Origin: Thermoleophilia bacterium
GTDB lineage: Bacteria > Actinomycetota > Thermoleophilia > Gaiellales > Gaiellaceae
Direction of reading: 5' to 3'
NCBI GenBank assembly: GCA_023382435.1
Contig: JAHDVS010000025.1
Location: 1 to 38,115, forward strand
Length of the DNA: 38,115 bases
This document shows positions 3,343 through 18,828 of the stretch, in pieces. Below the pieces are notes generated by a model, which worked only from the letters and a program-made list of their open reading frames with translations, was not told the origin of the DNA and ran no database searches. Numbering within the stretch: the first letter of the stretch is position 1; each line of letters starts with the position of its first letter. Position numbers and translations under genes: made by a program.

Positions 3343-4122
3343 TCAGGCCCGGGCGGGCTCCGCCGCGTACCCGAGCTGCTCTGAGATCGCCGTGGCGTGC
3401 CCGAGCAGCCGGCGTACCGCAGCCTCCATTTCCGGATGACCGAACCGGGAGGCCGGGCCCTGCACTCCGAGGATGGCCACGAGCTCCCGGTGCTGCCCGA
3501 AGACGGGTGCGGCGACGGCGTTGAGATCGCTCTCGCGCTCTCCGAGAGCCTCCGCGAAGCCGCGTTCCGCGACGAGAGCGACCGCGGCCGCGAGCGCCTT
3601 GCGATCCGTGATCGTCCGTGGCGTGTACGCGGGGAGGGGACCGCCGGGGAGCTTGCCGCCGTTGGCGAGGAAGACCTTCCCGACGGCGGTGGCGTGCGCG
3701 ACGCTGGGGCGCCCCAAGCGGGCGACGTACTGGACCGACGCCGTGCTCTGCGCGAAGTCCACGGTGATCGCCTCGTGCTCCCCGGGGGCGGAGAGCGTGG
3801 CGGACTCGCCGGTCTCCGCGACGAGAGCGGTCAGGTGAGGGCGCGCGATCTCGCGCAGATCGAGCCGGGAGAGGACAGAGTTTCCGAGCTCGAGCAGCCG
3901 CAGGCCCAGGCGGTAGCGGCCGGTGCCAGCCACGTGCTCGACGAACCCGGCCTCCGCCAGCGTCGCGAGCAGGCGCGAGACCGTGCTCGGGTTGATCGCG
4001 GTCCGTCTGGCGATCTCGTTCGTGCCGAGCTCGGGGGGCCCCGCTGCGAGCGCGTCCAGGACAGCGATCGCTCGCTGGACGGCGGCGACGTGGCGCATGG
4101 ATGGTTGACCGGTACGGGACAT
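3343..4122 (-). CDS. IclR-family transcriptional regulator
   Basis: The 259-residue protein has an N-terminal winged helix-turn-helix (about residues 12-75; ELGTNEIARRTAINPSTVSR is the HTH) followed by the IclR effector-binding domain (from ~95 to the end, including HATAVGKVFLA and LNAVAAPVF). IclR proteins usually sense a small organic acid or amine and control adjacent catabolic genes. It diverges from the FAD oxidoreductase at 4177 and is followed by the GcvT-like gene, so these are its likely targets. The ATG at 4122 gives a short leader from the predicted minus-strand promoter; the ATG at 4098 is an alternative and neither has a good ribosome binding site. The palindrome at 4153-4171 is the obvious candidate operator. 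Confidence 0.85.
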   Translation of the reverse strand: MSRTGQPSMRHVAAVQRAIAVLDALAAGPPELGTNEIARRTAINPSTVSRLLATLAEAGFVEHVAGTGRYRLGLRLLELGNSVLSRLDLREIARPHLTALVAETGESATLSAPGEHEAITVDFAQSTASVQYVARLGRPSVAHATAVGKVFLANGGKLPGGPLPAYTPRTITDRKALAAAVALVAERGFAEALGERESDLNAVAAPVFGQHRELVAILGVQGPASRFGHPEMEAAVRRLLGHATAISEQLGYAAEPARA

Positions 4123-4176: not shown

Positions 4177-5493
4177 ATGACGCTTCCCGCATCCACTCCC
4201 TATCTGGTGATCGGCGCCGGCATCCACGGGCTCTCGACGGCCTACCACCTGGCGAAGGAGTTGGAGGCCCGCGGGCTCGGCGCCGGGTCCGACATCGTCG
4301 TGGTGGACAAGCACAGCCCCGGGGCCGGCGCATCGGGCATCGCCTGCGGCGTCGTGCGCAACAACTACTTCCAGCCGGCCATGTCCGAGCTGATGCAGGC
4401 CTGCGTCGAGGTCTGGGAGTCGGACCCCGCTGCCTACCGCTACCACGGCGTGGGCTACGTCGCGCTCGGCGCCGCCTGCCAGGAGTCCGACCTGGCGGCG
4501 ACGTTCGAGCGCCAGGAGCGGATCGGCTACCGCTCCGAGCTGATCGTCGGCGAGCGGGCGGTGGCCGAGCACATGAAGGAGCTGTTCCCGGACTGGCGAG
4601 CGCGCGGCGTGACCGCCTGTCTGCACGAGCACCAGGGTGGCTTCGCCTACAACGTCGACTCGATCATGGGCCTGGCAACGAAATGCGAGCAGAGCTGGGT
4701 GCGCATCCACTCGGGTGTCGAGGTCAAGGCGTTCGAGTTCGCCGCCGACGGCTCGATCGTCGCGGCGATCACGAGCCAGGGCACGATCGCAGTCGGCGAG
4801 CAGGTCGTGATCGCGCCCGGGCCCTGGGCCAAGCAGCTGTGGGCGATGCTCGAGCTGCCGCAGGCGATCGACGTTCACACGCCCACCGGCGAGATGATCG
4901 AGGGCCGGCCGATGTGGACGTACTGGAACCTGCAGGAGGGCGAGATCAGGGTCGAGCCGAAGCTGTTCTCGCTGCCCGACGGCTCGATGCCTCCGGTCAT
5001 CCATCTCGACTCGGACGCGCCGCTCGTGACGGACGACGGCAAGCTCGTGACCGACGAGCTCTGGGGGGTCTACTTCAAGCAGGACAAGCACGGCGTGCAG
5101 GGCGGCGCGTCGCCGCTCGAGGTCGGCACCGAGCTCGAGCTCGACCCCTACCCGCAGACGACGGACGTCGATCCCGACTTCCCGGACATGTGGTGCGCCG
5201 CCCTCTCCCACGCGATGAGCCGCTTCGAGGGTTGCCGTCCGCTCTACAAGCTCGCCCGCTCCGGTGGCGTCGGCGCCTTCACCGCGGACAACTTCCCCGT
5301 CTTCGACTACGTCAAGCCGAACGCCTACGGGATCTTCGACTCGAACCACGGCTACAAGATGATCGGGGTCGGTCGCGAGGTCGCAAAGGTCGTCTGCGGC
5401 GACCACTCGAGCCTGCTCCATCCGTTCCGGTTCGAGCGCTTCGAGACCGGTGACCTCCACCCGGCCTCGAGCTCGCCGTACCCCTGGTCGTAG
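4177..5493 (+). CDS. DAO-family FAD oxidoreductase, sarcosine/dimethylglycine oxidase-like
   Basis: Predicted flavoprotein of 438 residues. The Rossmann motif VIGAGIHGLSTAYHLA (about residues 11-26) binds FAD, and the D-amino-acid-oxidase fold continues to the C-terminus, where GIFDSNHGYKMIGVG matches the second FAD-contact region. Members oxidise secondary or tertiary amines such as sarcosine, dimethylglycine or D-amino acids. The start at 4177 has a full GAGGAGG Shine-Dalgarno 10 nt upstream; an in-frame extension to 3397 is only an open antisense of iclR. It resembles SoxB and the FAD half of dimethylglycine dehydrogenase, and the GcvT-like protein opposite would supply the folate half. 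The exact substrate cannot be read from the sequence. Confidence 0.8.
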   Translation: MTLPASTPYLVIGAGIHGLSTAYHLAKELEARGLGAGSDIVVVDKHSPGAGASGIACGVVRNNYFQPAMSELMQACVEVWESDPAAYRYHGVGYVALGAACQESDLAATFERQERIGYRSELIVGERAVAEHMKELFPDWRARGVTACLHEHQGGFAYNVDSIMGLATKCEQSWVRIHSGVEVKAFEFAADGSIVAAITSQGTIAVGEQVVIAPGPWAKQLWAMLELPQAIDVHTPTGEMIEGRPMWTYWNLQEGEIRVEPKLFSLPDGSMPPVIHLDSDAPLVTDDGKLVTDELWGVYFKQDKHGVQGGASPLEVGTELELDPYPQTTDVDPDFPDMWCAALSHAMSRFEGCRPLYKLARSGGVGAFTADNFPVFDYVKPNAYGIFDSNHGYKMIGVGREVAKVVCGDHSSLLHPFRFERFETGDLHPASSSPYPWS

Positions 5494-6511: not shown

Positions 6512-7744
6512 TTACCCCGGGAGCCGGTCTGACCGCGAATCGACGAGGCCGAGGCGTCGCGCCAGAGAGCGCTTCGTCGTGGACTGGACGAGGAGCGTGA
6601 CGATGATCGCCAGCGCGACCGTGACCGTGACGAGCTCGGCATGCGGAACCTCCAGCGTCACCATCAGCCCTGCCAGCGCGGCCGGCATGACTCCGGTCTC
6701 CCGCGTCCAGCACAGGAAAGCGAGCTCTTCGCGGGTCCAGGCGGCGCGACGATCGGGCAGGAGGCACGTCAGCACCGCCAGCGGCCGGGCTACGAACATG
6801 AGAGTGGCGAGGACGGCGAGCGCCGGGGCCCAGGAGGCCGCGATTCCGCTCCAGGGAAGCGCGGCGCCCAGGATGATGAAGATGACGATGACCATGACCT
6901 CCGCGAGTCGCTCGATCACGAGGCGCAGCTCCGCCTCGTGGCGGCCGTGCATTCCGAGCCGCAGCTTGCCCATGTTGGCAATGATCACGCCGGCCAGGAA
7001 GACGCCGAGGTAGCCGCTGCCCCCGGCCGAGTCTTCGATGAAGTAATCGGTTGCGATCAGGGCAATGGTCGCCAGCGCGGCGGACTCCCGCCAGATCCCC
7101 GAGCGCCGGCTCGAGAGCACGAACGAGAGGGTGACCCCGAAAAAGGCGCCGAGCGCGGTCGAGATCACGAGCTCCGTCGCGAGCTCGCCCAGGGGCTCGC
7201 CGAGGCCGTTCCAGCCGTGCAGGACGATGCCGGCGACTGCCAGCGCGAGCACGGCTCCGATCGGGTCGTTGAACCCCGACTCCGCGACGATCGTCTGGGA
7301 TACCTTGGCGCGCACCCCGAGGCGCTCGAACAGCGGGATCAGGATCGCGGGATCGGTCGGCGCCAGCACCGCGCCGATCAGGATTCCGACCTCCAGGGGC
7401 ACGTCGAAGACCGCCGTCGCGACGGCGCCGCAGATCACGGCCGTCAGGAGCACACCGGGGACGACGAGCAGCCCGAGGCCGAGCGCCACCCGGCGCAACA
7501 CGTCGAGCGACAGGCCGAGGCCGCCGTGGAAGAGGATCACCGAGACACCGAGGGTCAGCGCCAGCTCGGCCGCCACCGAATCGAGCGGGATGTCGACGAG
7601 CCCCGCGACGGACGGTCCGAGCAGCGTGCCCGCCAGGAGCAGGAAGATCATGCGCGGCAGGCGCGTCAGGTCGGCGACGATCTCCGCGACGAGGCCCGCG
7701 CCGAGCACGAGCGCGAACGTGAGGACCACTTCTCTCGTCGTCAC
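6512..7744 (-). CDS. Cation:proton antiporter (CPA1, NhaP-type)
   Basis: A 410-residue integral membrane protein with about 12 hydrophobic segments, typical of the Na+/H+ exchanger domain. The stretch GAVLAPTDPAIL followed by ESGFNDPIGAVLALA carries the family's ion-binding acidic residues (the unwound TM4 TDP motif and the ND motif of TM5). The GTG at 7744 is preferred because a CAGAAT -10 box lies 8 nt upstream, consistent with a leaderless message, and the protein then begins right before the first membrane span. An ATG at 7777 is a possible alternative. It probably exports Na+ or K+ in exchange for protons. Confidence 0.8.
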   Translation of the reverse strand: MTTREVVLTFALVLGAGLVAEIVADLTRLPRMIFLLLAGTLLGPSVAGLVDIPLDSVAAELALTLGVSVILFHGGLGLSLDVLRRVALGLGLLVVPGVLLTAVICGAVATAVFDVPLEVGILIGAVLAPTDPAILIPLFERLGVRAKVSQTIVAESGFNDPIGAVLALAVAGIVLHGWNGLGEPLGELATELVISTALGAFFGVTLSFVLSSRRSGIWRESAALATIALIATDYFIEDSAGGSGYLGVFLAGVIIANMGKLRLGMHGRHEAELRLVIERLAEVMVIVIFIILGAALPWSGIAASWAPALAVLATLMFVARPLAVLTCLLPDRRAAWTREELAFLCWTRETGVMPAALAGLMVTLEVPHAELVTVTVALAIIVTLLVQSTTKRSLARRLGLVDSRSDRLPG

Positions 7745-7752
7745 GGCGCCAG

Positions 7753-7758
7753 ATTCTG
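7753..7758 (-). promoter_or_regulatory. -10 box of a probable leaderless antiporter transcript
   Basis: CAGAAT on the minus strand, 8 nt before the GTG start at 7744. No Shine-Dalgarno is visible, and no convincing -35 box is found at normal spacing. Confidence 0.3.
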
Positions 7759-7818
7759 ACGCTCGGTGCGCCGACATGCCTTGCAACCCGCGGCCGCTTC
7801 GCTCACCATGGCCACACC

Positions 7819-8043
7819 GTGCTGTTCGTCCTCGTCTTCCGCGACGCGCCCGGCGCCCTGCCGATCATGCTGCTGACGCTCGCCGTCGCCATGTACCTGG
7901 CCGTGATCGAGTTGCGCGAGCTTCGGCCCCACTGGAAATGGTGGTTCTGGTGGCTCTCCGTCGTCTTCCTCATCCACTTCCCGGGCTATCTCGCCCTGAG
8001 GGTCTACGGTGCCTTCCGTCGGAGAAACCGGGCGCGGGCTTAG
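7819..8043 (+). CDS. Small two-span membrane protein, unknown
   Basis: 74 residues starting with GTG. Two hydrophobic segments (about residues 13-30 and 42-62) flank an aromatic/basic stretch with the tryptophan-rich sequence HWKWWFWW, and the C-terminus is arginine-rich. This resembles short actinobacterial membrane proteins of unknown role. It overlaps the next gene by 35 bp, so the two are likely co-translated. No clear ribosome binding site is seen, which leaves the start somewhat uncertain. Confidence 0.55.
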   Translation: MLFVLVFRDAPGALPIMLLTLAVAMYLAVIELRELRPHWKWWFWWLSVVFLIHFPGYLALRVYGAFRRRNRARA

Positions 8044-8353
8044 AGACCGCCCGCTCGGGAAGGCGCTGATCCTCGTGGTCGCCCTCCTGGCTGCGGTTCT
8101 CGTCGCCCGCAGTTGCGGGAAGGTCGACGCCGAACTGAGTCGGGAAGACGCGATCGCGATCGCGAAGGACGTCGTCGAGTTCGAGCCGAACCTCGTCCAG
8201 GTTCGTTTGATGAAGCGTGGCTTACAATCGAATTCATTCTGGGCGGTCTCGCTTTCCGTGCAGCGGCCGGACGGCCGACTCGAGAACGTCACCGTGGTCG
8301 TGGTCGATGCGCGCTCGGGTGAGATCGCCGAGATTCGCAAGTCTGCTGACTGA
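8009..8353 (+). CDS. Membrane-anchored PepSY-like small protein
   Basis: The 114-residue protein has one N-terminal hydrophobic segment (about residues 18-35, followed by a cysteine), then a domain with the PepSY-like pattern: helix SREDAIAIAKDVV followed by strands ending in VVVVDARSGEIAEI. Such domains are usually extracytoplasmic and may act as inhibitors or binding modules. The GTG at 8009 has GAGGG 6 nt upstream, inside the previous gene. Confidence in the PepSY assignment is moderate because only the helix-strand pattern was read by eye. Confidence 0.6.
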   Translation: MPSVGETGRGLRDRPLGKALILVVALLAAVLVARSCGKVDAELSREDAIAIAKDVVEFEPNLVQVRLMKRGLQSNSFWAVSLSVQRPDGRLENVTVVVVDARSGEIAEIRKSAD

Positions 8354-8358
8354 GCCGT

Positions 8359-8374
8359 GCGGGCGGTTGCCCGC
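8359..8374 (+). terminator. Short GC hairpin after the PepSY-like gene
   Basis: GCGGGC, loop GGTT, GCCCGC, 5 bp after the stop at 8353, without a T tract. Possible terminator separating this gene from the amt operon. Confidence 0.4.
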
Positions 8375-8391
8375 CGTGTGCATCTATGGAG

Positions 8392-8416
8392 GTTTCGACA
8401 CTTTGAGCGTCGAAAC
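8392..8416. promoter_or_regulatory. GTTTCGAC-N9-GTCGAAAC inverted repeat upstream of amt
   Basis: Perfect 8-bp arms with a 9-bp centre (25 bp in all), located 108 bp before the amt start in the otherwise gene-free 170-bp gap 8354-8523. It is relatively AT-rich against the local background. GAAAC/GTTTC half-sites recall the binding elements of actinobacterial nitrogen regulators such as GlnR, but the match is partial. It is a candidate operator for the ammonium transporter operon. Confidence 0.45.
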
Positions 8417-8523
8417 GATGTTGCCCTCGAACCTTGGAGCCGTCCGACCGGGGTCGTAGCCTTGGCCCCGGACGATGTTAGCGACGCTGTAGGCCGATGG
8501 ATAACCAGGGGGAGGTCGCGCTC

Positions 8524-10005
8524 GTGGACGTGCTCGCGTCGGTTCTATCCGCGCTCGCCCAGACGGTGGAGGAGCAGATCGCCGAGCTCTCGGACAAGAT
8601 CAGCCTCGACTCCGCCATCCTCGGCGAGACGTTCTATTTCTGGACCGTCGTCATCATGTGGCTGATTCACGTCGGCTTCATGATGTACGAGGCCGGGACG
8701 TCGAGGCGTAAGAACATCATGTCCACGGCGACCAAGAACATCCTCACGATCGCCGTCGTGACGCCGAGCTTCTACTACTTCGGCTGGTACATCTACGGCT
8801 GCTTCGAGCACGGCGGCCCCGCGCAGGGACACGCCGGCCCGGATCCGGAGTTCCCCGGCTTCTGCGGCATGACGTCGCCGTGGGCCGACCAGATGGGCCC
8901 TAACCTGACCGACCACATCACGCTCGTCTTCTTCCTCGCGTTCCTGCTCTTCTCCTGGACGACCGGCTCGATCATGTCCGGAGCGGTGATCGAGCGGATC
9001 CGCGTGTCCGCCTACCTGATCCTGACCGTGCTGCTCGGGTCGGGCGTCTGGATCATGGACGCCGCCTGGGGCTGGAGCGCCGGTGGCTGGCTGGTCACGA
9101 ACTACGGCTTCCACGACGCGATCGCCTCGCTCGTCGTCCATGGCGTCGCCGGCGCGTTCGCGCTCGGGGTGCTCCTCAACCTGGGCCCGCGGATCGGCAA
9201 GTACGACCGCGAGGGCAGAGCCAGGGCGTTCAGGCCCCACAACACGCACATGACCCTGTCCGGCCTGATGATGATCTTCACGGGGTTCTACGGCTTCTAC
9301 GCCGCCTGCCTCGTGATCCTCTCGACCATCAGTCCCGGCTGGCTCAACATCTACCTGTCTCCGTCAACCCTCGGGACGATCGGGATGGTGATCACGATCG
9401 GCTTCGCGGGCGGCTTCACCGGCGGCTGGTTCGCGAGCAAGGGCGACCCGTTCTGGACACTGTCCGGCGGCCTCGCGGGCGTGATCTCGGTCTCGGCCGG
9501 TGCCGACATCTACCACCCCTCGCTCGCCTACATCCTCGCGTTCTCGGGCGGCCTGCTCGCCGTCTGGGCTGGCGGCTACATCGAGAAGAAGCTGCGCATC
9601 GACGATGCCGTCGGGGCGGTAGCCGTGCACGGCGTGTGCGGCTTCTACGGGGTCCTGCTCGTCGGTATCTTCGGCGGCGGGTTCCCGACGGGGCTGAACA
9701 GCGTCGAATCGTCGTTCGGCGGCCAGCTGATCGGCATGCTGGCCTTCTTCCCGCTCGCGTTCCTGCCCGGCTACATCGCGAGCTGGCTGCTCAAGAAGGC
9801 CAACCTGCTGCGAGTTCCGCCCGAGGTGGAGCTCGAGGGCCTCGACATGGCGGAGTTCCAGCAGGACTTCTACCCCGAATTCGAGCGGCTGCCCGAGACG
9901 ATCGTGCTGCCGGACGGGGAGGAGGTCGAGGCCGCCCCGATCCTGCTCGACGCGTACAACCAGTTGAACGGCGGCCGGCCGGGCGTCAAAGTCGGCGGCG
10001 ACTAG
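8524..10005 (+). CDS. amt: Divergent Amt/MEP-type ammonium (or methylammonium) transporter
   Basis: Predicted 493-residue channel with about 11 membrane spans. Family landmarks are present: TSRRKN after TM1, D198 exactly 8 residues before H206 in DAIASLVVH, and the second pore histidine H369 in VAVHGVCGFYG, matching the Asp160/His168/His318 layout of E. coli AmtB. It differs in several places: the usual DFAGGTVVH is DAIASLVVH, the N-terminus has an extra amphipathic stretch of ~35 residues, and an acidic ~60-residue C-terminal tail follows the last span. The GTG at 8524 is chosen because GGGGGAGG sits 8 nt upstream; an ATG at 8497 would place that Shine-Dalgarno inside the gene. No glnK follows; instead two mini membrane proteins and a zinc-ribbon protein do. 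Methylammonium is a plausible substrate given the neighbours, by inference only. Confidence 0.85.
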   Translation: MDVLASVLSALAQTVEEQIAELSDKISLDSAILGETFYFWTVVIMWLIHVGFMMYEAGTSRRKNIMSTATKNILTIAVVTPSFYYFGWYIYGCFEHGGPAQGHAGPDPEFPGFCGMTSPWADQMGPNLTDHITLVFFLAFLLFSWTTGSIMSGAVIERIRVSAYLILTVLLGSGVWIMDAAWGWSAGGWLVTNYGFHDAIASLVVHGVAGAFALGVLLNLGPRIGKYDREGRARAFRPHNTHMTLSGLMMIFTGFYGFYAACLVILSTISPGWLNIYLSPSTLGTIGMVITIGFAGGFTGGWFASKGDPFWTLSGGLAGVISVSAGADIYHPSLAYILAFSGGLLAVWAGGYIEKKLRIDDAVGAVAVHGVCGFYGVLLVGIFGGGFPTGLNSVESSFGGQLIGMLAFFPLAFLPGYIASWLLKKANLLRVPPEVELEGLDMAEFQQDFYPEFERLPETIVLPDGEEVEAAPILLDAYNQLNGGRPGVKVGGD

Positions 10006-10020
10006 GAAGGGGGTGGCGCG

Positions 10021-10266
10021 ATGATCGACAGTTTCCCGTACGACGCGTGGTACCTCGGGGACGGCACCCTCGACCCGGCGATCACGACGTTCTGGACGTT
10101 CGGGCCGACCACCGGCTCGGAGGGCGGCGACCTGACGGGGACGTTCGTCCTGACAGCGCTCGGAATCCTGCTCATGGTGGCCGCTCTGATCGGATGGGTC
10201 GTCACCGAGCACCGCAAGCTCACCCACCAGGCCGAACACCTTCGGGCCGCAAGCTCCGGGGACTAG
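10021..10266 (+). CDS. Single-span membrane mini-protein in the amt operon
   Basis: 81 residues with an acidic/aromatic N-terminal part (about 40 residues, FPYDAWYLGDGTLDPAI), one membrane span (about residues 42-61) and a short C-terminal tail with a histidine/basic patch. GGAAGGGGG precedes the ATG, 15 bp after the amt stop. I recognise no family. Its place between amt and another one-span protein suggests it is an accessory subunit or assembly partner of the transporter. Confidence 0.65.
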   Translation: MIDSFPYDAWYLGDGTLDPAITTFWTFGPTTGSEGGDLTGTFVLTALGILLMVAALIGWVVTEHRKLTHQAEHLRAASSGD

Positions 10267-10276
10267 GAGGAAACCG

Positions 10277-10435
10277 ATGGCGTTCCCTCGCGACAAGCAG
10301 ATCGAGTTCCCGCCGATGCAGACGCACCTCAAGTGGATCGCGCCCGCGCTGCTTCTCTTCTCGGTCGTCTGCATCGTGGTCGTGGTCATCATTCTCCTCA
10401 CCCACCCGAGCGGGTCCTTCATCGGGCCCTGGTAG
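10277..10435 (+). CDS. 52-residue single-span membrane protein in the amt operon
   Basis: The protein begins MAFPRDKQIEFPPMQTHLKW, continues with one long hydrophobic segment (about residues 21-42) and ends PSGSFIGPW. A strong GGAGGAAACCG ribosome binding site lies directly before the ATG, overlapping the end of the preceding gene's stop region. The gene is short enough to be missed by automated calling. With the 81-residue protein upstream it forms a pair of one-span partners for the Amt-like channel. Function unknown. Confidence 0.7.
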   Translation: MAFPRDKQIEFPPMQTHLKWIAPALLLFSVVCIVVVVIILLTHPSGSFIGPW

Positions 10436-10477
10436 TACGGTAGGACGGAAGCGAACTGAAGGAGGAACACCGAACGA

Positions 10478-10708
10478 ATGGCGCTGTACCTGACGTGTCG
10501 CCTCTGCGGTCGCAAGCAGGCTGACGGCCTGCTCTCCCGCGGCCACTGGGGCCATCTCGATGCGGGCCCGTACGGGAAGCTGCAGGCGTGCCCGACCTGC
10601 AAGGAGCGTCACTCCGCCGACTGGCAGGATCAGCTCCGTGCTGCGGTGAACGGTGCGTCCGCCGCCGCTTCGCCCGCGACTCACGCGGTCTCGATCTCTC
10701 TGAGCTGA
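10478..10708 (+). CDS. Small zinc-ribbon protein, last gene of the amt operon
   Basis: 76 residues with two CxxC pairs, C7-x2-C10 and C38-x2-C41, separated by a loop rich in Gly, His and Trp, consistent with one zinc ribbon. The last ~25 residues are low-complexity and Ala/Ser-rich. AAGGAGG lies ahead of the ATG and a strong hairpin terminator follows 7 bp after the stop, so this is the end of the amt transcription unit. No known family is recognised; a regulatory or metal-sensing role is only a guess. Confidence 0.65.
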   Translation: MALYLTCRLCGRKQADGLLSRGHWGHLDAGPYGKLQACPTCKERHSADWQDQLRAAVNGASAAASPATHAVSISLS

Positions 10709-10715
10709 CTCCGCG

Positions 10716-10740
10716 GGGGCGGCCGTCTCGCGGCCGCCCC
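10716..10740 (+). terminator. Strong hairpin terminator of the amt operon
   Basis: GGGGCGGCCG, loop TCTCG, CGGCCGCCCC: a perfect 10-bp stem followed by TCT, between the zinc-ribbon gene and the convergent fhs gene. The remaining bases 10741-10853 show no gene. Confidence 0.75.
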
Positions 10741-10853
10741 TCTACGGGCGGGCGCTTCCGGGCGTTCGTGCTCGAAGGGATCGGAGCGCCACCACCCTAC
10801 TGACGTCTCGGCAGCGGGGTGCCAGGCACGAGCCCGGCACCAGCCCTCCTCCT

Positions 10854-12521
10854 CTAGAACAGCCCGACCGTGCGGCCCTCTTCGTCGATGTCGACGTTGT
10901 GGAAGGCGGGGCTGACGCCATAGCCCGGCATCGTCTGCATGTCGCCGCACAGCGCCACGATCCAGCCGGCGCCGGTGTAAGCGCGGAGGTCACGCACCGG
11001 CAGCGTGAAGCCCGTGGGGGCGTTCAGGAGCCCGGGGTCGTGGGAGATCGAGAGGTGCGTCTTCGCCATGCAGATCGGCACCGTGTCGAGACCGTCCTTC
11101 GTGTAGCGGTCGATCTTCTCGAGCGCGGCCGGCAGGAAGTGAACCCCGTCGGCGCGGTACACCCGCTTCGCGATCGCCTCGATCTTGTCGGCGATCGGCG
11201 CGTCGAGCGCGTAGAGGAAGTCGAACTCGTTCGGCTGCTCGCACGCGTCGACGACAGCCTCGGCCAGCACGACAGCTCCGTCACCGCCCTTCTCGTACGC
11301 CTCGTTCAGCTCGGCCCGGTAGGCGCCGTAGTCGAGCGCGAGCCTGCGCGTGAGCTCGCACTCCTCGTCGGTGTCCTCCGGGCGGCGGTTGACGGCGACG
11401 ACCGGCTTGAGTCCGAACTCCTTCACGATCCCGATGTGTCGACCCAGGTTCGCGGAGCCCCGCTCGATCGCGTCGAGCCCGCCGTCCGGGTCGTCGCCGT
11501 GGTGCTTGAGCGCGCGCACGGTGGTGACGACGACGACAGCGTGCGGACGCAGGTTTCCGAGCCGGCAGACGATGTGGAGGAACTTCTCCATGCCGAGGTC
11601 GGAGGCGAAACCGCCCTCGGTGATCACGATGTCCCCGAGTTTGACCCCCACCTTGGCGGCGATCAGCGACGAGTTCCCGTGCGCGATGTTGCCGAACGGC
11701 CCGCAGTGCATGAAGCACCCCTGACCCTCGAGCGTCTGGATCAGGTTCGGCTTCAGGACCTCCTTCAGGAGCACGGCCATCGCCCCCGCCACCTTCAGTT
11801 GCTCCGCGACGACGGGCTCGCCCTCGTACGTGTAACCGACGGTGATCGCGCCGAGCCGCCGCCGGAGATCGGCGAGGTCGGCCGCGACGGCGCAGATCGC
11901 CATCACCTCGGAGGCGGCGGTGATGTCGAAGCCGCTCTCGCGCGGGTAGCCGTTAGCGCGGCCGCCGAGCCCGAGCACGATCTGGCGCAGCGCGCGGTCG
12001 TTGACATCGAGGCAGCGCCGCCAGCCGATCGTGAGCGGGTCGATCCCGAGCTTGTTGCCGTGCAGCACGTGCGCCTCGAGCGCCGCCGCGAGCAGGTTGT
12101 TCGCGGCTCCGATCGCGTGGATGTCGCCGGTGAAGTGGAGGTTCAGGTCCTCCATCGGCACGACCTGGGCGTACCCGCCTCCCGCGGCGCCGCCCTTGAT
12201 CCCGAACACCGGCCCGAGCGACGGCTCGCGGATGCAGAGCACCGGCCGTCGGCCGATCTTGCCGAGGCCCTGCGTCAGCGAGACCGACGTCGTCGTCTTC
12301 CCCTCGCCCGCCTTCGTCGGGGTGATCGCCGTGACGCACACGAGCTTCCCGTCCGGGGTGCCGGCCAGCCGGTCGAGCAGCGAGAGGTCGACCTTCGCCT
12401 TGAACTTGCCGTACGGATCGTAGTCGTCGGGCCCGAGCCCGTAGCGCGCCGCGATGTCGGCGATCGGCTCGAGCGTGTGGGCCTGGGCGATCTCGAGATT
12501 CGAGGGGACTTTCGTGGCCAT
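10854..12521 (-). CDS. fhs: Formate-tetrahydrofolate ligase
   Basis: Catalyses ATP + formate + THF to 10-formyl-THF, and in catabolism can run in reverse to release formate and ATP. The 555-residue length is normal for the family. The ATP-binding P-loop TPTKAGEGKTT is at residues 67-77, and the N-terminus (MATKVPSNLEIAQAH) is typical. The ATG at 12521 has GGAGGAG just upstream, which rules out the longer open frame. It follows soxB on the same strand after 96 bp, so it is probably the last gene of the sox operon. Next to demethylating enzymes and upstream in pathway terms of a formate dehydrogenase, it links folate-bound one-carbon units to formate. Confidence 0.95.
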   Translation of the reverse strand: MATKVPSNLEIAQAHTLEPIADIAARYGLGPDDYDPYGKFKAKVDLSLLDRLAGTPDGKLVCVTAITPTKAGEGKTTTSVSLTQGLGKIGRRPVLCIREPSLGPVFGIKGGAAGGGYAQVVPMEDLNLHFTGDIHAIGAANNLLAAALEAHVLHGNKLGIDPLTIGWRRCLDVNDRALRQIVLGLGGRANGYPRESGFDITAASEVMAICAVAADLADLRRRLGAITVGYTYEGEPVVAEQLKVAGAMAVLLKEVLKPNLIQTLEGQGCFMHCGPFGNIAHGNSSLIAAKVGVKLGDIVITEGGFASDLGMEKFLHIVCRLGNLRPHAVVVVTTVRALKHHGDDPDGGLDAIERGSANLGRHIGIVKEFGLKPVVAVNRRPEDTDEECELTRRLALDYGAYRAELNEAYEKGGDGAVVLAEAVVDACEQPNEFDFLYALDAPIADKIEAIAKRVYRADGVHFLPAALEKIDRYTKDGLDTVPICMAKTHLSISHDPGLLNAPTGFTLPVRDLRAYTGAGWIVALCGDMQTMPGYGVSPAFHNVDIDEEGRTVGLF

Positions 12522-12617: not shown

Positions 12618-13823
12618 TCAGTGGGTGACAGAGGCGGCGGCCGCCTCGGAGACAAGCGTATCCGTGTAGAAGCGCTCGAGCTTGAACGGCTCGATCAGGC
12701 GCGGCGTCGTGCCCGTCGCGACGAGCTCGGCGAGCGTGGTGCCGACGATCGGCGTCGCCTTGAAGCCATAGGTGCCCCAGCCGCAGTCGACGACGAAGCC
12801 GTCGACCTCGGTCAGACCCATGACGGGACTGAAGTCGGGGGTCATGTCGCAGAGACCCGTCCACTGCCTCAGGATCCGGGTGCTCGCGAGCTGCGGGAAC
12901 AGGTCGAGCATGTGCTTGGACAGCTCCTCGATGAAGCCGAACGTGCTCGTGAACGAGAACGTCGGGTAGGGCTCGACGCCGGAGCCCATCAGGAACTCGC
13001 CGCGGTCGGTCTGCGAGATGTAGATGTGCAGCTGGCCGGAGACGATGATCACGTCGAGAAACGGCTTCACGGGCTCGGTCACGCACGCCTGGAGGATCGT
13101 CGTCCAGATCGGGAGCTTGACGCCCGCCATCGCCGCGAGCTGGGTCGACCAGCCGGCGGTGCAGGCGATCACCGTGCCGGCGGCGACCGGGCCCCGGCTC
13201 GTCTGTACGCCAGTGGCCCTGCCGTTCGAGACGTCGATGCCCGTCACCTCGATCCCCTGGTGGATCTCCGCCCCGCCGCGGTCGGCGCCGCGCGCGTAGC
13301 CCCAGACCACGGCATCGTGGCGGATCACTCCGCCCGGGGGGTGATAGAGGGCGCCGTAGACCGGGAAGGCGCCGTCGAGGTGGATCTGCGGGCAGATCTC
13401 CATCACCTCGTCGCGACCGACCACGCGGCTGTCGATCCCGAGCAGCTGGTTTACCTCGGCGCGCTCGGCGGACACGACCATGCCGCGGTCGGAGTGCGCC
13501 AGGGTCAGGTGGCCGTGCTGGGAGAACATCAGGTTGAAGTCGAGGTCCTGCGCGAGGTGCTCGTAAAGCTTCACGCTGTCCCGGTAGAACTCCGCTCCTT
13601 CCGGCGTCCGGTAGTTGGAGCGGATGATCGTGGTGTTGCGACCCGAGCCGCCCGCGCCGATGTAGCTCTTCTCGAGCACGCAGACGTTCGTGATTCCGTG
13701 GTTCTTGGCGAGGTAGTAGGCGGTTGCGAGCCCGTGGGCGCCGCCACCGATGATGACCACGTCGTAGCGCGGCTTGAGCTCGTGGCGTCGCCACATCTTC
13801 TTCTTGAAGAAGATGTCTCTCAC
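12618..13823 (-). CDS. soxB: Sarcosine oxidase beta subunit (or N-methylglutamate dehydrogenase homologue)
   Basis: The 401-residue FAD subunit of a heterotetrameric sarcosine-oxidase-type enzyme. The dinucleotide-binding motif VVIIGGGAHGLATAYYLA is near residues 22-39. H169 in GGVIRHDAV aligns with the histidine that carries covalent FMN in the beta subunit of known enzymes (His173 in Corynebacterium), so both flavin sites are probably present. The GTG start at 13823 overlaps the soxG stop as GTGA, which implies translational coupling. Here soxB comes last (D-A-G-B), whereas classical operons begin with soxB. N-methylglutamate dehydrogenase uses homologous subunits, so the substrate is not settled. 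Confidence 0.88.
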   Translation of the reverse strand: MRDIFFKKKMWRRHELKPRYDVVIIGGGAHGLATAYYLAKNHGITNVCVLEKSYIGAGGSGRNTTIIRSNYRTPEGAEFYRDSVKLYEHLAQDLDFNLMFSQHGHLTLAHSDRGMVVSAERAEVNQLLGIDSRVVGRDEVMEICPQIHLDGAFPVYGALYHPPGGVIRHDAVVWGYARGADRGGAEIHQGIEVTGIDVSNGRATGVQTSRGPVAAGTVIACTAGWSTQLAAMAGVKLPIWTTILQACVTEPVKPFLDVIIVSGQLHIYISQTDRGEFLMGSGVEPYPTFSFTSTFGFIEELSKHMLDLFPQLASTRILRQWTGLCDMTPDFSPVMGLTEVDGFVVDCGWGTYGFKATPIVGTTLAELVATGTTPRLIEPFKLERFYTDTLVSEAAAASVTH

Positions 13824-14443
13824 TGTCTGCGCACCTCGATCGCGTCGGCGCCCGCGGGACCGCCGCCGAGCGGTTCGGCGGCGTCGAGGGCGACTTCGTA
13901 CAGGTAGTGGCCGTACTCCTGGGGGAAGACGATCCAGATGCCGTTCGCGTCCCGATCGAGAAGGTGGGCGGGCACGTGCGAGACCATGCCGCTCGCGGGC
14001 AGCTCGCACAGGTGTGTGAGGCGACCGAGCACCCGCGCTGCCTGCGGCCCCACGAGCGCGAGGATCCCGAGCGCGGCCGTCTGATCGAGGGCCAGCGGGA
14101 AGTGCCGTGCGAGCGTCGAGCGGGTCAGGAACACGTCGCGGTACGCGGTCAGGACGAGCGAGCGGTCGGGACGGATCCGGTACCACGCGAGCACGTCCCT
14201 GCTCTGCTCGGCCTCGCCGGTGCCGCGTACCTCGACCTTTCCGAGATGGGAGAGGTCGACGAGCGCGACGCTCGCGAGCCGCTCGGCCTCGCCCGGGAAG
14301 GAGGCCGCGACGAGCCAGCCGTCGCGCTCCTCGAACGTCGCTCCGCGCTCCCGCTGCGCGCGCTCGAGCGACGAGCGCAGGAGCGGCGCGAAGCCGAGAT
14401 CGGCGCGAGCGCGGTCGGGGCTGAGGAAGTCGAGCGTGCTCAC
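13820..14443 (-). CDS. soxG: Sarcosine oxidase gamma subunit
   Basis: 207 residues with the fold of the small gamma subunit, which is distantly related to GcvT-like folate-binding domains (VALVDLSHLGKVEVRG and LALVGPQAARVL are the recognisable blocks). It contributes to the alpha/beta/gamma/delta complex rather than to catalysis. Its GTG start lies in a 4-nt GTGA overlap with the soxA stop, and its own TGA overlaps the soxB start in the same way. Family sequences are poorly conserved, so the call also rests on position in the operon. Confidence 0.82.
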   Translation of the reverse strand: MSTLDFLSPDRARADLGFAPLLRSSLERAQRERGATFEERDGWLVAASFPGEAERLASVALVDLSHLGKVEVRGTGEAEQSRDVLAWYRIRPDRSLVLTAYRDVFLTRSTLARHFPLALDQTAALGILALVGPQAARVLGRLTHLCELPASGMVSHVPAHLLDRDANGIWIVFPQEYGHYLYEVALDAAEPLGGGPAGADAIEVRRQ

Positions 14444-17091
14444 GAGCGCAGCTTCGCCCCCTCCGGGTCGTGGAACGGCTGCGTGCGTACGACGGCCTGG
14501 TCGAGCTCTCCGCCGATTCTGATCTCGAAGGTCGTGCCCTCCCCGGAGAGGTCGATCGGGACGATCGCCATCCCGATCACCTTCCCGACCTGCTCGCTGT
14601 AGCGCACGCTGGTGACCCGCCCGGCGGACTTGCCGCCGACGACGACCTGCGCGCCCTCGACCGGCATCCGTCCGCTCGGCACCTCGAACCCGACGAGCAG
14701 CGAGCGCAGACCGCGCTCCTGGACGTGCTCGATCGCCCACTTGCCGATGAAGTCGTCCTTGTCGAGCTTGACGATCCACGGCATCGCGGCCTCGAGCGGG
14801 TTCGACTCGGCATCGGTGTCCTGTCCGACCAGAATGTGCGTCTTCTCGAGCCGCAGGATCCGCTGCGGCTCCAGGCCGAACGGGGTCGCGTTCCACTCGG
14901 CGCCGTGCTCGAACAGCGCGTCCCAGACGTGCTCGCCGTGGGGGCTCGGGAAGTGGAGCTCGTAGCCGAGCTCCCCGACGAAGCCGATCCGCAGGATCAG
15001 GGCGGGAACGCCGGCCACGTGGCCGCGCTTCGCGTCGAGGTAGGCGAACGCCTCGTTTCCGACATCGCCGTCGAAGACTCTCTCCATCAGCTTGCGCGCG
15101 TTCGGCCCCGTCACGTTGACCGCGGCGACAGCGCCCGTGACGTTGGCGAGCTCGACGTCCATGTGCCAGACCGCGTTCCACCACTCGAACCACTGGAACA
15201 CGCCGTCGGCACCGGTCGACGTCGTCGTGACGTAGAACTCGTCATCGGCCAGGCGGGCCACGGTACCGTCGTCGAAGATCCGTCCGGCGTCGTTCGTGAG
15301 CACCCCGTAGCGGATCCGCCCGACCTTGAGGTCGGAGAAGCGGTTCGGGTAGAGGCGGTCGAGGAACGCGCCCGCGTCCGGGCCCTTGACGAGGAGCTTG
15401 CCGAGCGTCGAGACGTCGATCACGCCGAGCGACTCGTGCACCGCGCGCACCTCCGCTTGCGGGTCGGCCGAGTAGGAGTGCGGCCGCCGCCAGCTTCCGG
15501 TCCAGAAGACCGTCGCCCCCATGTCCTTGTGGCGGTGGTGCATGGACGTGCGCTTGGCGGCCTCGTGCGGTCGGCCGGCGAGCAGCCCCATCGACACCGG
15601 GGAGGTCGGGGGGCGCGCGGTCGTCGTCCCGATCGTGCCCTCGTCGGTACGGGTCTCGCGGGCGGCCACCCGAACCGCGTTGAGGTGGCACAGGCGCCCC
15701 TGACACGGCCCCATCGTCGCGGTCGTGTAGCGCTTCGCGAGCTGAATCGAGTCGAATCCCTCCGCTACCGCATCCTTGAAATCCTTCGTCGTCACGTCCT
15801 CGCAGAAGCAGACGATCGACTTGCCCTCGCCCTCGCCGTGCGACGGGGGTGGGACCGCGGGGCTGCCGACGTCCCCCGACGCCTCGCCGGCGACCTCGAC
15901 GCCCGGGGGCAGCTCCACGGGGACGAAGATCCCGCGTCCCGGGTCGAACTCGACGCGCGCGCGAGCGTGGGCGAGCAGGCCGTAATTTGGCTGCGGGCTC
16001 CCGGACATGACGACGAGGTCGCAGTCGAAGCGCTTGCCGTCGACGGTCAGCGACCGAACCTGCTTGCGACCCTTCGCGACCACCGAGCGCGGCACGCGCT
16101 CGCGGTAGTCGACGACCTCGGCGATCTCCACGCCGGCCGCCTCGAGCTCGCGTGCCGTCTCGACGCCCCGGTCGTCTACGGTGAGGACGACCGCGCGCTC
16201 GCCGGGCCTCAGCGACCAGTAGTTCGCGAGCCGGCGCGCGCCGGCGGGGAGCATCACTCCCGGGAGGTCGTTGCCCGCGAACACGAGCGGCTGCTCGAGC
16301 GTGCCCGTGGCTGCGACGACCGTCTCGGCACGGAACTTGACCAGCGTGCTGCCGCGGTCGACCGGGACGAGGTTGCCTTCGTACAGCCCGATCGCGCGTG
16401 CGAACGGGAGGATCTCGACGCCGGCCTGGGCCGTTTCCGCGGCGAGGGAGCGCATCGTCATGATCCGCTCGCGGTTGGCCAGCTGGTGGCCGCCCGGCTC
16501 CGGGCCCTCGTCGATCAGGACGACCTGGCGCCCCGCGCGGGCGTGCGCGAGTGCAGCCTCGAGGCCGGATTGGCCTCCGCCGACGACCAGCACCTCGGCG
16601 TGGGCGTGCTCGTGGTCGACGCGCCGTCGCTCGGTCACGTGCGGGTCGAGCTTGCCGAGGCCGGCCGCGTTGCGCAGGAACTTCTCGTAGTACGGCCAGG
16701 CCCAGCGGGGCCGGATGAACGTCTTGTAGTAGAAGCCGACGGGGGTGAACGGGCCGCCGATCCTGTCCGTCACCGCCATCAGGTCCCGGTCGAGGGAGCC
16801 GACGACGTTCTGCGCCTTCACGACGGTCCCTTCGCGCGGAGGCCGCACGCAGACGCGCACGTTCGGCACGCCATCCACGGTCATCATGCAGTTCGGGCAC
16901 TGGCCCGAGCAGCAGAGCAACCCCCGGCGCCGGTGGTACTTGAAGCTGCGGCCGAATACCCGCCGGCCCGCGGCGAAGAGCGCCGAGCCGATCGTGTCAC
17001 CTGCGAACGCGCGCACCGGCTCGCCCTCGAACGTGAACGTGACGGTCTTCGAGCGATCGATCAGCTCGTGCTCGCGGGGCGGCAGCCTCAC
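14440..17091 (-). CDS. soxA: Sarcosine oxidase alpha subunit
   Basis: An 883-residue multidomain subunit that transfers the methyl-derived carbon to THF as methylene-THF. The domains are: an N-terminal 2Fe-2S-like/Fer2-type domain (about residues 15-95) with a cysteine cluster C60, C61, C65, C68, C81; an NAD-binding flavoprotein-type domain (VLVVGGGQSGLEAALAHA, about 167-184); a cysteine-rich BFD-like module (C428, C430, C463, C468); and a C-terminal GcvT-like folate domain from about 515 to the end. A proline/glycine-rich linker precedes the BFD-like part. It is somewhat shorter than classical alpha subunits (~960-1000 residues). The GTG at 17091 forms a GTGA overlap with soxD. It is co-translated with soxD and soxG. 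Confidence 0.9.
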   Translation of the reverse strand: MRLPPREHELIDRSKTVTFTFEGEPVRAFAGDTIGSALFAAGRRVFGRSFKYHRRRGLLCCSGQCPNCMMTVDGVPNVRVCVRPPREGTVVKAQNVVGSLDRDLMAVTDRIGGPFTPVGFYYKTFIRPRWAWPYYEKFLRNAAGLGKLDPHVTERRRVDHEHAHAEVLVVGGGQSGLEAALAHARAGRQVVLIDEGPEPGGHQLANRERIMTMRSLAAETAQAGVEILPFARAIGLYEGNLVPVDRGSTLVKFRAETVVAATGTLEQPLVFAGNDLPGVMLPAGARRLANYWSLRPGERAVVLTVDDRGVETARELEAAGVEIAEVVDYRERVPRSVVAKGRKQVRSLTVDGKRFDCDLVVMSGSPQPNYGLLAHARARVEFDPGRGIFVPVELPPGVEVAGEASGDVGSPAVPPPSHGEGEGKSIVCFCEDVTTKDFKDAVAEGFDSIQLAKRYTTATMGPCQGRLCHLNAVRVAARETRTDEGTIGTTTARPPTSPVSMGLLAGRPHEAAKRTSMHHRHKDMGATVFWTGSWRRPHSYSADPQAEVRAVHESLGVIDVSTLGKLLVKGPDAGAFLDRLYPNRFSDLKVGRIRYGVLTNDAGRIFDDGTVARLADDEFYVTTTSTGADGVFQWFEWWNAVWHMDVELANVTGAVAAVNVTGPNARKLMERVFDGDVGNEAFAYLDAKRGHVAGVPALILRIGFVGELGYELHFPSPHGEHVWDALFEHGAEWNATPFGLEPQRILRLEKTHILVGQDTDAESNPLEAAMPWIVKLDKDDFIGKWAIEHVQERGLRSLLVGFEVPSGRMPVEGAQVVVGGKSAGRVTSVRYSEQVGKVIGMAIVPIDLSGEGTTFEIRIGGELDQAVVRTQPFHDPEGAKLRS

Positions 17092-17339
17092 GCCGGCAGC
17101 TCCGTTCTGACCACCCGGTTCGTGGTCGTGTCCCGCTCCGCGAGAAACCACGTCCCGCAGCCGTGGCGGTGGTACCACCACTCGCGATGCACTCCCGCCA
17201 CGTTGTTCTTGAAGAACACGTACTCGTTCAGCTCGCGCAGGCCCGGCCGCTCCGTTGGGCGGGTCGTGACCTCGCCCGCGCAGCGAAACTCCTCCACCTC
17301 TCGGGGGCCGCAGTGCGGGCAGGTGAGCAGGAACGACAT
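17088..17339 (-). CDS. soxD: Sarcosine oxidase delta subunit
   Basis: The 83-residue zinc-binding subunit. C7-x2-C10 at the N-terminus and H59/C61 in EWWYHRHGCGTWF agree with the zinc site of SoxD (Cys-Cys-His-Cys). The ATG at 17339 begins the conserved MSFLLTCPHCG start; the longer frame to 17408 is promoter DNA. There is no Shine-Dalgarno; a TATAAG box ends 8 nt before the ATG, so the message may be leaderless or nearly so. It is the first gene of soxDAGB-fhs. The upstream region contains TTGCC/GGCAA and GCCCTCAGGGC elements. Confidence 0.88.
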   Translation of the reverse strand: MSFLLTCPHCGPREVEEFRCAGEVTTRPTERPGLRELNEYVFFKNNVAGVHREWWYHRHGCGTWFLAERDTTTNRVVRTELPA

Positions 17340-17475: not shown

Positions 17476-18828
17476 TCAGAACCGCGTCAGATACTCCCGG
17501 ATCTCCCAGGGAGTGACCTGCTCGTGATAGCGGTCCCATTCGTCGCGCTTCACGCGGATGAAGTAGTCGACGTAGTCCTCGTTCGCGCAGCGCCCGAGGC
17601 CCTCCCGCAGCACCTCGCTGCGCTTGAGCTCGTGTGTCGCCTCGAGCAGGTTCGCGGGCAGCGTCTCGAGCCCCCGTCCCCGCAGTTCGTCGTAGGGGAT
17701 GGTGTAGAGGTTCTCCGTGTTCGGCTCGCCCGGGTCGATCCGGCTCTCGATCCCGTCGAGGCCGGCAGCGAGCACGGCCGCGGCGGCGAGGTACGGGTTG
17801 CAGGAGCCGTCGATCGTGCGATCCTCGATCCGGCCGGGGCCTGGTATCCGCAGCATCTGGGTGCGGTTGTTGTAGCCGTAGCTGACCCAGACCGGCGACC
17901 ACGTCGAGCCGCTCGTCGTCGTGCCGACCTTGAGCCGTTTGTAGCTGTTGACGGTGGGTGCGGTCACGGCGCTGTAGGCGCGGGCGTGCCTCAGGAGGCC
18001 GCCGGTGAAGTGGTAGCCGGTCTCGGAGAGACCGAGCCCCCGCGGGTCGGATCCGCCCAGGAACACGTTCTCGCCGTCTTTCCAGAGCGACATGTGGAAG
18101 TGGCAGCCGTTGCCGGTCAGGCTCGAGAACGGCTTGGGCATGAACGTCGCGAGCAGCCCCTGCTGCTGGGCGAGCGCGTGGATCATGTAACGGAAGAAGA
18201 TCGCGCGGTCGCAGGAGACGAGCGCATCCGCGTACGTGATGTTCTGCTCGAACTGGCCGTTCGCGTCCTCGTGATCGTTCGCGTAGTTGCCCCAGCCGAG
18301 GCCGTTCACGTACTTCGAGACGGTGGTCAGGAAGTCGTAGTTGCGCGTCAGCGCGCGCAGGTCGTAGCAGGGCTTCTCGAGCGTGTCGAGCGTGTCGGCG
18401 ATCTCGATCGACCCGTCCTCGCGCTGTCGGATCAAGAAGTACTCGAGCTCGAGCCCGATCTTGAACTCGTACCCTTTTGCCTTCGCCTTCGCCAGCATGT
18501 TCTTCAGGATCGTGCGTGGGTCGTAGGGCCAGGGTTCGCCCTCGACCGTGATGTCGCAGGCGAAGCGCGCGAGGCCGGGCTGCCAGGGAACGGGGGTGAA
18601 CGAGTCGAGGTCAGGGATCGCCGCGATGTCCGGGTCGCTCGGAACCTGCCCGATCTCTCCGGCGGCGAAGCCCGCGAAGCCGGCGCCGTTCTCGACGAAG
18701 TCGTCGAGGTTCCACGCCGGGATCAGCTTCGCGCTCGGGCGCGCGTACATGTCGACGAACTGCGCGAAGTAGAACTCGATCCCGCGCTCCTCCGACTCGC
18801 GCCGGATCTCCTCGATCGTCCTGCCCAT
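17476..18828 (-). CDS. glnT: Type III (GlnT/GmaS-like) glutamine or gamma-glutamylmethylamide synthetase
   Basis: A 450-residue ATP-dependent ligase of the glutamine synthetase superfamily. The metal-binding glutamates appear in LELEYFLI (E127, E129) and GQFEQN (E194). GNGCHFHMSLW (about 239-249) is the catalytic signature. The segment KPCYDLRALTRNYDFLT through NDHEDANGQFE is characteristic of the GlnT group, which includes the gamma-glutamylmethylamide synthetase (GmaS) of methylotrophs. The ATG at 18828 has GGAGGGA upstream. It sits between a PucR-type regulator and a sarcosine oxidase-type operon. GmaS plus a Sox-like enzyme is the hallmark of the N-methylglutamate pathway, but the synthase genes mgsABC are absent here. 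Plain ammonium assimilation or glutamylation of another amine remains possible. Confidence 0.85.
   Translation of the reverse strand: MGRTIEEIRRESEERGIEFYFAQFVDMYARPSAKLIPAWNLDDFVENGAGFAGFAAGEIGQVPSDPDIAAIPDLDSFTPVPWQPGLARFACDITVEGEPWPYDPRTILKNMLAKAKAKGYEFKIGLELEYFLIRQREDGSIEIADTLDTLEKPCYDLRALTRNYDFLTTVSKYVNGLGWGNYANDHEDANGQFEQNITYADALVSCDRAIFFRYMIHALAQQQGLLATFMPKPFSSLTGNGCHFHMSLWKDGENVFLGGSDPRGLGLSETGYHFTGGLLRHARAYSAVTAPTVNSYKRLKVGTTTSGSTWSPVWVSYGYNNRTQMLRIPGPGRIEDRTIDGSCNPYLAAAAVLAAGLDGIESRIDPGEPNTENLYTIPYDELRGRGLETLPANLLEATHELKRSEVLREGLGRCANEDYVDYFIRVKRDEWDRYHEQVTPWEIREYLTRF

Follow-up and report, generated by a model that had tools for sequence, protein, structure and literature searches.

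The locus raises the question of what an Amt-type channel transports, and with which partners, when it is followed not by glnK but by two one-span mini-proteins and a zinc-ribbon protein. A preliminary description of the window, by which we mean the whole 38,115-nucleotide stretch analysed here, proposed a new type of multi-subunit ammonium or methylammonium transporter. We consider it probable, at roughly 0.6, that the gene encodes a channel for the uptake of methylammonium, belonging to a separate branch of the Amt family and working with dedicated one-span partners, a reading in which we infer the substrate, the direction of transport and the physical complex.

The divergent Amt/MEP channel gene lies on the plus strand at 8524..10005 and encodes 493 aa from a GTG at 8524, or 502 aa from an ATG at 8497. 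The GTG is preferred because it fits the starts of homologues better and because a GGGGGAGG ribosome site precedes it. The protein scores 207 bits against Pfam PF00909 (cut-off 23.2), which places it in the Amt/MEP/Rh family, and 218.8 against TIGR00836, below the cut-off of that amt subfamily model (343.3). It is about 26% identical to E. coli AmtB and carries both N- and C-terminal extensions. The Asp/His/His pore layout had been described as preserved within an altered motif, and this was borne out: the motif reads HDAIASLVVH, with D160 and H168 kept, as is H318 (E. coli AmtB numbering here and below).

All four ORFs are present in the order originally claimed, with almost no gaps between the genes. 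The channel is followed on the plus strand by an 81-aa one-span protein (p81, 10021..10266), a 52-aa one-span protein (p52, 10277..10435) and a 76-aa zinc-ribbon protein with two CxxC pairs and a weak TFIIS-type ribbon match (10478..10708). The ribosome binding sites noted for the two mini-proteins are also there, GGAAGGGGG before p81 and AGGAGG before p52, and AAGGAGG precedes the zinc-ribbon gene at a long spacing. Of the strong terminator said to close the unit, a GC-rich hairpin on the plus strand at about 10714..10741, 3' of the zinc-ribbon gene, can be found, and it folds moderately better than shuffled sequences (z -1.8); it has no T-run, and the terminator scan called no intrinsic terminator with a T-run after the zinc ribbon. 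Two further plus-strand genes lie upstream of the channel, encoding a small hydrophobic protein conserved in Gaiellaceae (p74, 7819..8043) and a membrane-anchored PepSY-like protein (p114, 8009..8353; PepSY E 0.004, below the cut-off). The PepSY-like protein stays with the unit across families, upstream in Gaiellaceae and after p52 in other families.

The motif of p81 is F-W-T-F-G...TM...E-x-R/K-K-L and its predicted topology N-out/C-in, while p52, with the motif KQI(E/D)FPPxQ ... SxxC, is predicted to be N-in/C-out. Of 12 p81-type sequences checked, 11 carry two to five K/R residues on the C-terminal side of the helix and none on the N-terminal side, where the exception has a single K. The charge pattern of p52 is the reverse, and these opposite positive-inside topologies are consistent across sequences. 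Median dN/dS values of 0.35-0.43 for p81, p52, p74 and the zinc ribbon indicate purifying selection. No Pfam or NCBIfam model covering p81 or p52 and no recognisable signalling domain in them was found, no Rfam element was found within 7500-11500, and the PHROG comparison gave weak matches only. CcmD was set aside as an identity for p81, the matches being sub-threshold only.

Canonical Amts of the same class, of other phyla and of PDB entries were included in maximum-likelihood trees, in which 40 relatives form a monophyletic branch supported at 100/100, its stem measuring 1.9 substitutions per site. Support was taken from the unrooted split; when the tree is rooted on a group of Amt-like proteins that lack the pore histidines, the branch is separated from that group with a support of 0.74 only. 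A divergent protein of Methylobacterium DM1 behaved as a rogue long branch, and the branch was retested without it. Judged by its sequence, and in line with the preliminary description, the window channel is a member of a separate Amt branch and not a standard AmtB.

Two other kinds of Amt-like protein were seen beside this branch. The highly divergent DM1 protein, encoded on a plasmid of Methylobacterium sp. DM1 (L111:1474-3068), groups loosely with it on a long branch, and its gene overlaps a 66-aa one-span ORF. A second, very divergent protein, in which H168 is Tyr and H318 is Phe, was found at L038:2351-3781 and on the complement at L065 and L068; genes of this type have no one-span partner, and in two genomes they adjoin the DAO gene that is part of the neighbourhood described here.

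Five substitutions (F103A, Q104F, L208I, W212F and S219C) mark the branch: all of them are fixed among its members (40/40), and the other sequences show none (0/29). Three of them, F103A, Q104F and S219C, lie around the outer cation site. Positions 162, 165 and 216 are altered in nearly all branch members, and two subclades can be told apart by residues 162 and 216, one with Ile or Tyr at 162 and Tyr at 216, the other with Gly at 162 and Leu at 216. W148, H168, F215 and H318 are common to all the sequences compared, and F107 and D160 to nearly all; all six, the twin-His pore among them, are kept in every one of the 40 branch members. The canonical C-terminal HGExAY-like stretch has become xDxYPE-like in the branch.

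The absence of glnK after the channel was confirmed: one-span ORFs stand in its place and no P-II gene adjoins. P-II genes occur in 0/33 branch neighbourhoods, the 38-kb window included, compared with 12/16 canonical controls. The genome encodes a canonical Amt as well; this second protein scores 383 bits with PF00909, and its gene has a P-II (GlnK) gene immediately upstream. The branch thus shares with the AmtB-GlnK system the Amt fold, the twin-His pore and F107/W148/D160/F215, and differs from it in having no adjacent P-II, in its altered C-terminus and outer site (F103A, Q104F, S219C) and in its one-span partners.

Had the small proteins been missing next to close homologues of the channel, the proposal would have lost its ground; they are there. 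Downstream sequence was available for 44 distinct branch loci. At 43 of them the Amt is directly followed by an SD-led ORF, 36-130 aa long and predicted to span the membrane once; such an ORF is seen at 1/22 ordinary Amt loci (Fisher p 5e-15, a guide only since the sequences are related). The odd branch locus (L050) has an ORF that is closely homologous to the partner counted at L048 and narrowly misses the hydropathy threshold, and the single ORF at an ordinary Amt is GC-rich and likely spurious. Across 399 genomes of the class, most genomes examined being MAGs, profile searches found p81 (E<1e-10) in 31, all of which have the branch Amt, and the branch Amt itself in 33. p81 is missing from two of these 33: G024 has a second type of partner (type 2), and in G669 the Amt runs off the contig end. 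Similarly, p52 was found in 24 of the 399 genomes, and all 24 also have the branch Amt and p81. By their coordinates p81 and p52 adjoin the Amt with two exceptions, p52 in G710 and one of two p81 copies in G655; there the Amt contig breaks off and they are found on another contig.

The partner found in Proteobacteria is homologous to p81 (profile-profile hhalign E 4.5e-7), and type 2, which occurs in Ruegeria and some Actinomycetota, aligns with p81 only weakly but is of the same build. In Actinomycetota outside Gaiellaceae the unit mostly comprises the Amt, a one-span protein of 38-113 aa, p81, p52 and the PepSY protein. In Gaiellaceae that first small protein is missing, a zinc ribbon is added, and p74 and the PepSY gene lie upstream. 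The zinc ribbon gave tblastn matches in Gaiellaceae loci and none in sister families, and p52 was seen in Actinomycetota only. Hence the idea of a conserved four-gene operon held for the synteny of the Amt and the small ORFs and failed for the zinc ribbon, which is not a core part because it is confined to the Gaiellaceae versions. On this distribution the core is the Amt with one p81-type protein, to which p52 was added in Actinomycetota and the zinc ribbon locally.

These data bear directly on the possibility that the small ORFs encode commonplace membrane mini-proteins that have nothing to do with the channel, CcmD-like ones for example, and lie downstream by chance. Apart from a weak match of p81 to CcmD, below the cut-off, the observations point the other way: co-occurrence with the branch Amt is exclusive, adjacency extends across families and phyla, and no cytochrome c maturation genes were seen among the neighbours. 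Conservation across families, dN/dS below 1 and near-invariant synteny make the small ORFs more than chance neighbours. The co-occurrence test has largely refuted this explanation, which we regard as hardly credible.

The surroundings of the unit point to its substrate. On the minus strand, convergent with the Amt unit, is a formate-tetrahydrofolate ligase gene (FTHFS, 10854..12521) that is syntenic in relatives. At higher coordinates, also on the minus strand, lie a SoxB-SoxG-SoxA-SoxD-like operon resembling N-methylglutamate dehydrogenase (mgdABCD, 12618..17339) and a gmaS-type gamma-glutamylmethylamide synthetase gene (17476..18828; TIGR03105 616 bits, cut-off 470), the sole gene in the genome above that cut-off. 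The PDB entries that match this GmaS best are 7cql (Rhodovulum GmaS, 441 bits) and 9qur ('Glutamate--methylamine ligase', 426 bits); true glutamine synthetases reach 274 bits. Of the residues described as setting GmaS apart (PMC7948447) it keeps D177, E179, E186, N188 and W300, and the Asp that binds ammonium is replaced by Ala. The SoxA-like protein scores 711 bits against a cut-off of 1164, a level of homology that cannot separate an N-methylglutamate dehydrogenase from a sarcosine-oxidase relative. Formate dehydrogenase-like genes, named from their sequence only, are also found in the window. No mgsABC was found within the window; paralogous sets occur elsewhere in the genome, and its best N-methylglutamate synthase candidates are 52-58% identical to Ruegeria MgsC, compared with 77% for the MgsC of complete clusters in class relatives such as that at L098. 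A DAO-type flavoprotein gene lies at 4207-5493 of the window; counterparts 73-78% identical are found close to the Amt unit in Gaiellaceae and, in G024, close to the Amt.

Across the branch, gmaS, mgsABC, mgd, dmm or tdm genes are present in 29/32 neighbourhoods against 0/16 neighbourhoods of ordinary Amts, where the glutamine synthetases are only ordinary ones (27-37% identity). Methylamine genes are absent within the fetched flanks of L042 and L047, and L040 has FTHFS alone on a short contig. Gly162/Leu216 members lie mostly beside dmm/tdm, and members with Ile or Tyr at 162 and Tyr at 216 mostly beside gmaS/mgs/mgd, with exceptions such as L092, L097 and L115; we treat this pattern as a lead on selectivity. 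The neighbourhood evidence supports methylammonium over ammonium as the likely substrate, and such enrichment by itself is no proof of substrate. The fold alone does not prove dedication either, since ordinary Amt channels carry methylammonium too. The branch Amt is nevertheless a strong candidate for a methylamine importer, because the branch sits in methylamine clusters and has a one-span partner that ordinary channels lack.

The same genes could instead accompany an ammonium channel that is co-regulated with methylamine catabolism and recaptures or releases NH4+ from methylamine oxidation, the small proteins aiding assembly or regulation only. The twin-His pore and F107/W148/F215 are indeed kept, the amt of such clusters bears the label of an ammonium transporter in three papers (PMC5520151, PMC4744692, PMC7574528), and according to one of these Rhodobacteraceae release ammonium from methylamines (PMC7574528). 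However, the genome already has its GlnK-paired canonical Amt, every one of the 40 members has Cys for Ser219 at the outer ammonium site, and residues 162 and 216, by which the subclades differ, roughly track the type of amine gene nearby. We consider this explanation unlikely.

Amt-fused sensors are known, and the channel might likewise be a methylamine sensor (transceptor) whose small partners relay a signal to a regulator. Regulator genes are near, a GAF/PucR gene at 18900-20492 and an IclR gene at 3343-4098. Furthermore, the nearest solved Amts by sequence, 6eu6 and 8qj3 (122 and 110 bits), are of the same family, and 8qj3, with 644 residues, is a long Amt with an extra C-terminal part. 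The window channel differs from both in having no fused C-terminal domain of such size, and we know of no one-span partner for either. The two regulators belong to different families, neither adjoins the Amt unit, and no signalling domain can be recognised in p81 or p52. A sensor role is in our view very improbable.

For the favoured reading, a methylammonium importer, the following mechanism can be proposed. CH3NH3+ would bind at the outer aromatic site of an Amt homotrimer core, remodelled by F103A, S219C and the changed residues 104, 162 and 216, and would then pass inward along the twin-His pore. p81 (N-out/C-in) and, in Actinomycetota, p52 (N-in/C-out) may flank the channel as subunits that serve its assembly, stability or gating, and may substitute for GlnK control. 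Inside the cell, GmaS, N-methylglutamate synthase and the Mgd complex would convert the methyl group to methylene-THF, with FTHFS and formate dehydrogenase completing the pathway. In known Amt structures the C-terminus is cytoplasmic, which together with the predicted outside position of the p81 N-terminus fits separate genes and not a fusion. AlphaFold modelling of a fused Amt-p81 chain gave a mean pLDDT of 49.5 with 17 sequences, too poor to inform on contacts. A more far-reaching version would have the one-span proteins as obligate subunits that act with the altered outer site to make an importer of methylated amines out of an ammonium channel, the two 162/216 subclades being tuned to mono- and to di/trimethylamine; this is possible and we hold it tentatively, leaning somewhat against it.

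Members of the branch have been met before under a more general name. The amt of Roseobacter methylated-amine clusters, near dmmDABC, mgsABC and gmaS, appears as an unspecified ammonium transporter in papers on them (PMC5520151, PMC4744692, PMC7574528). The Ruegeria and Ponticoccus members fall in the same branch and have a one-span ORF directly downstream, whose product carries the annotation 'hypothetical'; unlike the window unit, these loci have neither p52 nor PepSY. The 'marine subtype' ammonium transporter model TIGR03644 describes another member of the Amt family, and the window channel, at 184 bits against a cut-off of 514, does not belong to it.

Both in the sea and in soil, methylamines are a widespread source of nitrogen and carbon, and the enzymes that degrade them are known. 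A full-text search of open-access papers found no such bacterial methylamine importer and no one-span Amt partner, and the literature searched names no dedicated importer; how marine bacteria transport methylated amines is a question that the authors of PMC7948447 hope to answer. The branch Amt offers a concrete, widespread and genetically accessible candidate for this importer, and the p81-type family, conserved small proteins outside Pfam and NCBIfam, a candidate Amt subunit. Its pore variants form a natural set for studies of selectivity between ammonium and its methyl derivatives.

Two further sets of loci were noted. On plasmid 1 of P. aeruginosa RW109 a canonical AmtB (L114:4579-5907) lies between mgsC and dmm genes, beside gmaS-mgs, and has no partner, and a branch member with its one-span partner (L051:7956-9469) lies on the opposite side of the same dmm genes. 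A methylamine cluster can thus contain a canonical AmtB too, which speaks against the favoured reading. Bacterial microcompartment loci at L059 (G000:C20:9000-20000) and L060 (G000:C20:24000-33000) encode BMC shell and EutN/CcmL proteins and aldehyde dehydrogenases, and also have mgsABC-like GATase, GXGXG and FMN glutamate-synthase genes, with glutamine-synthetase-like genes nearby.
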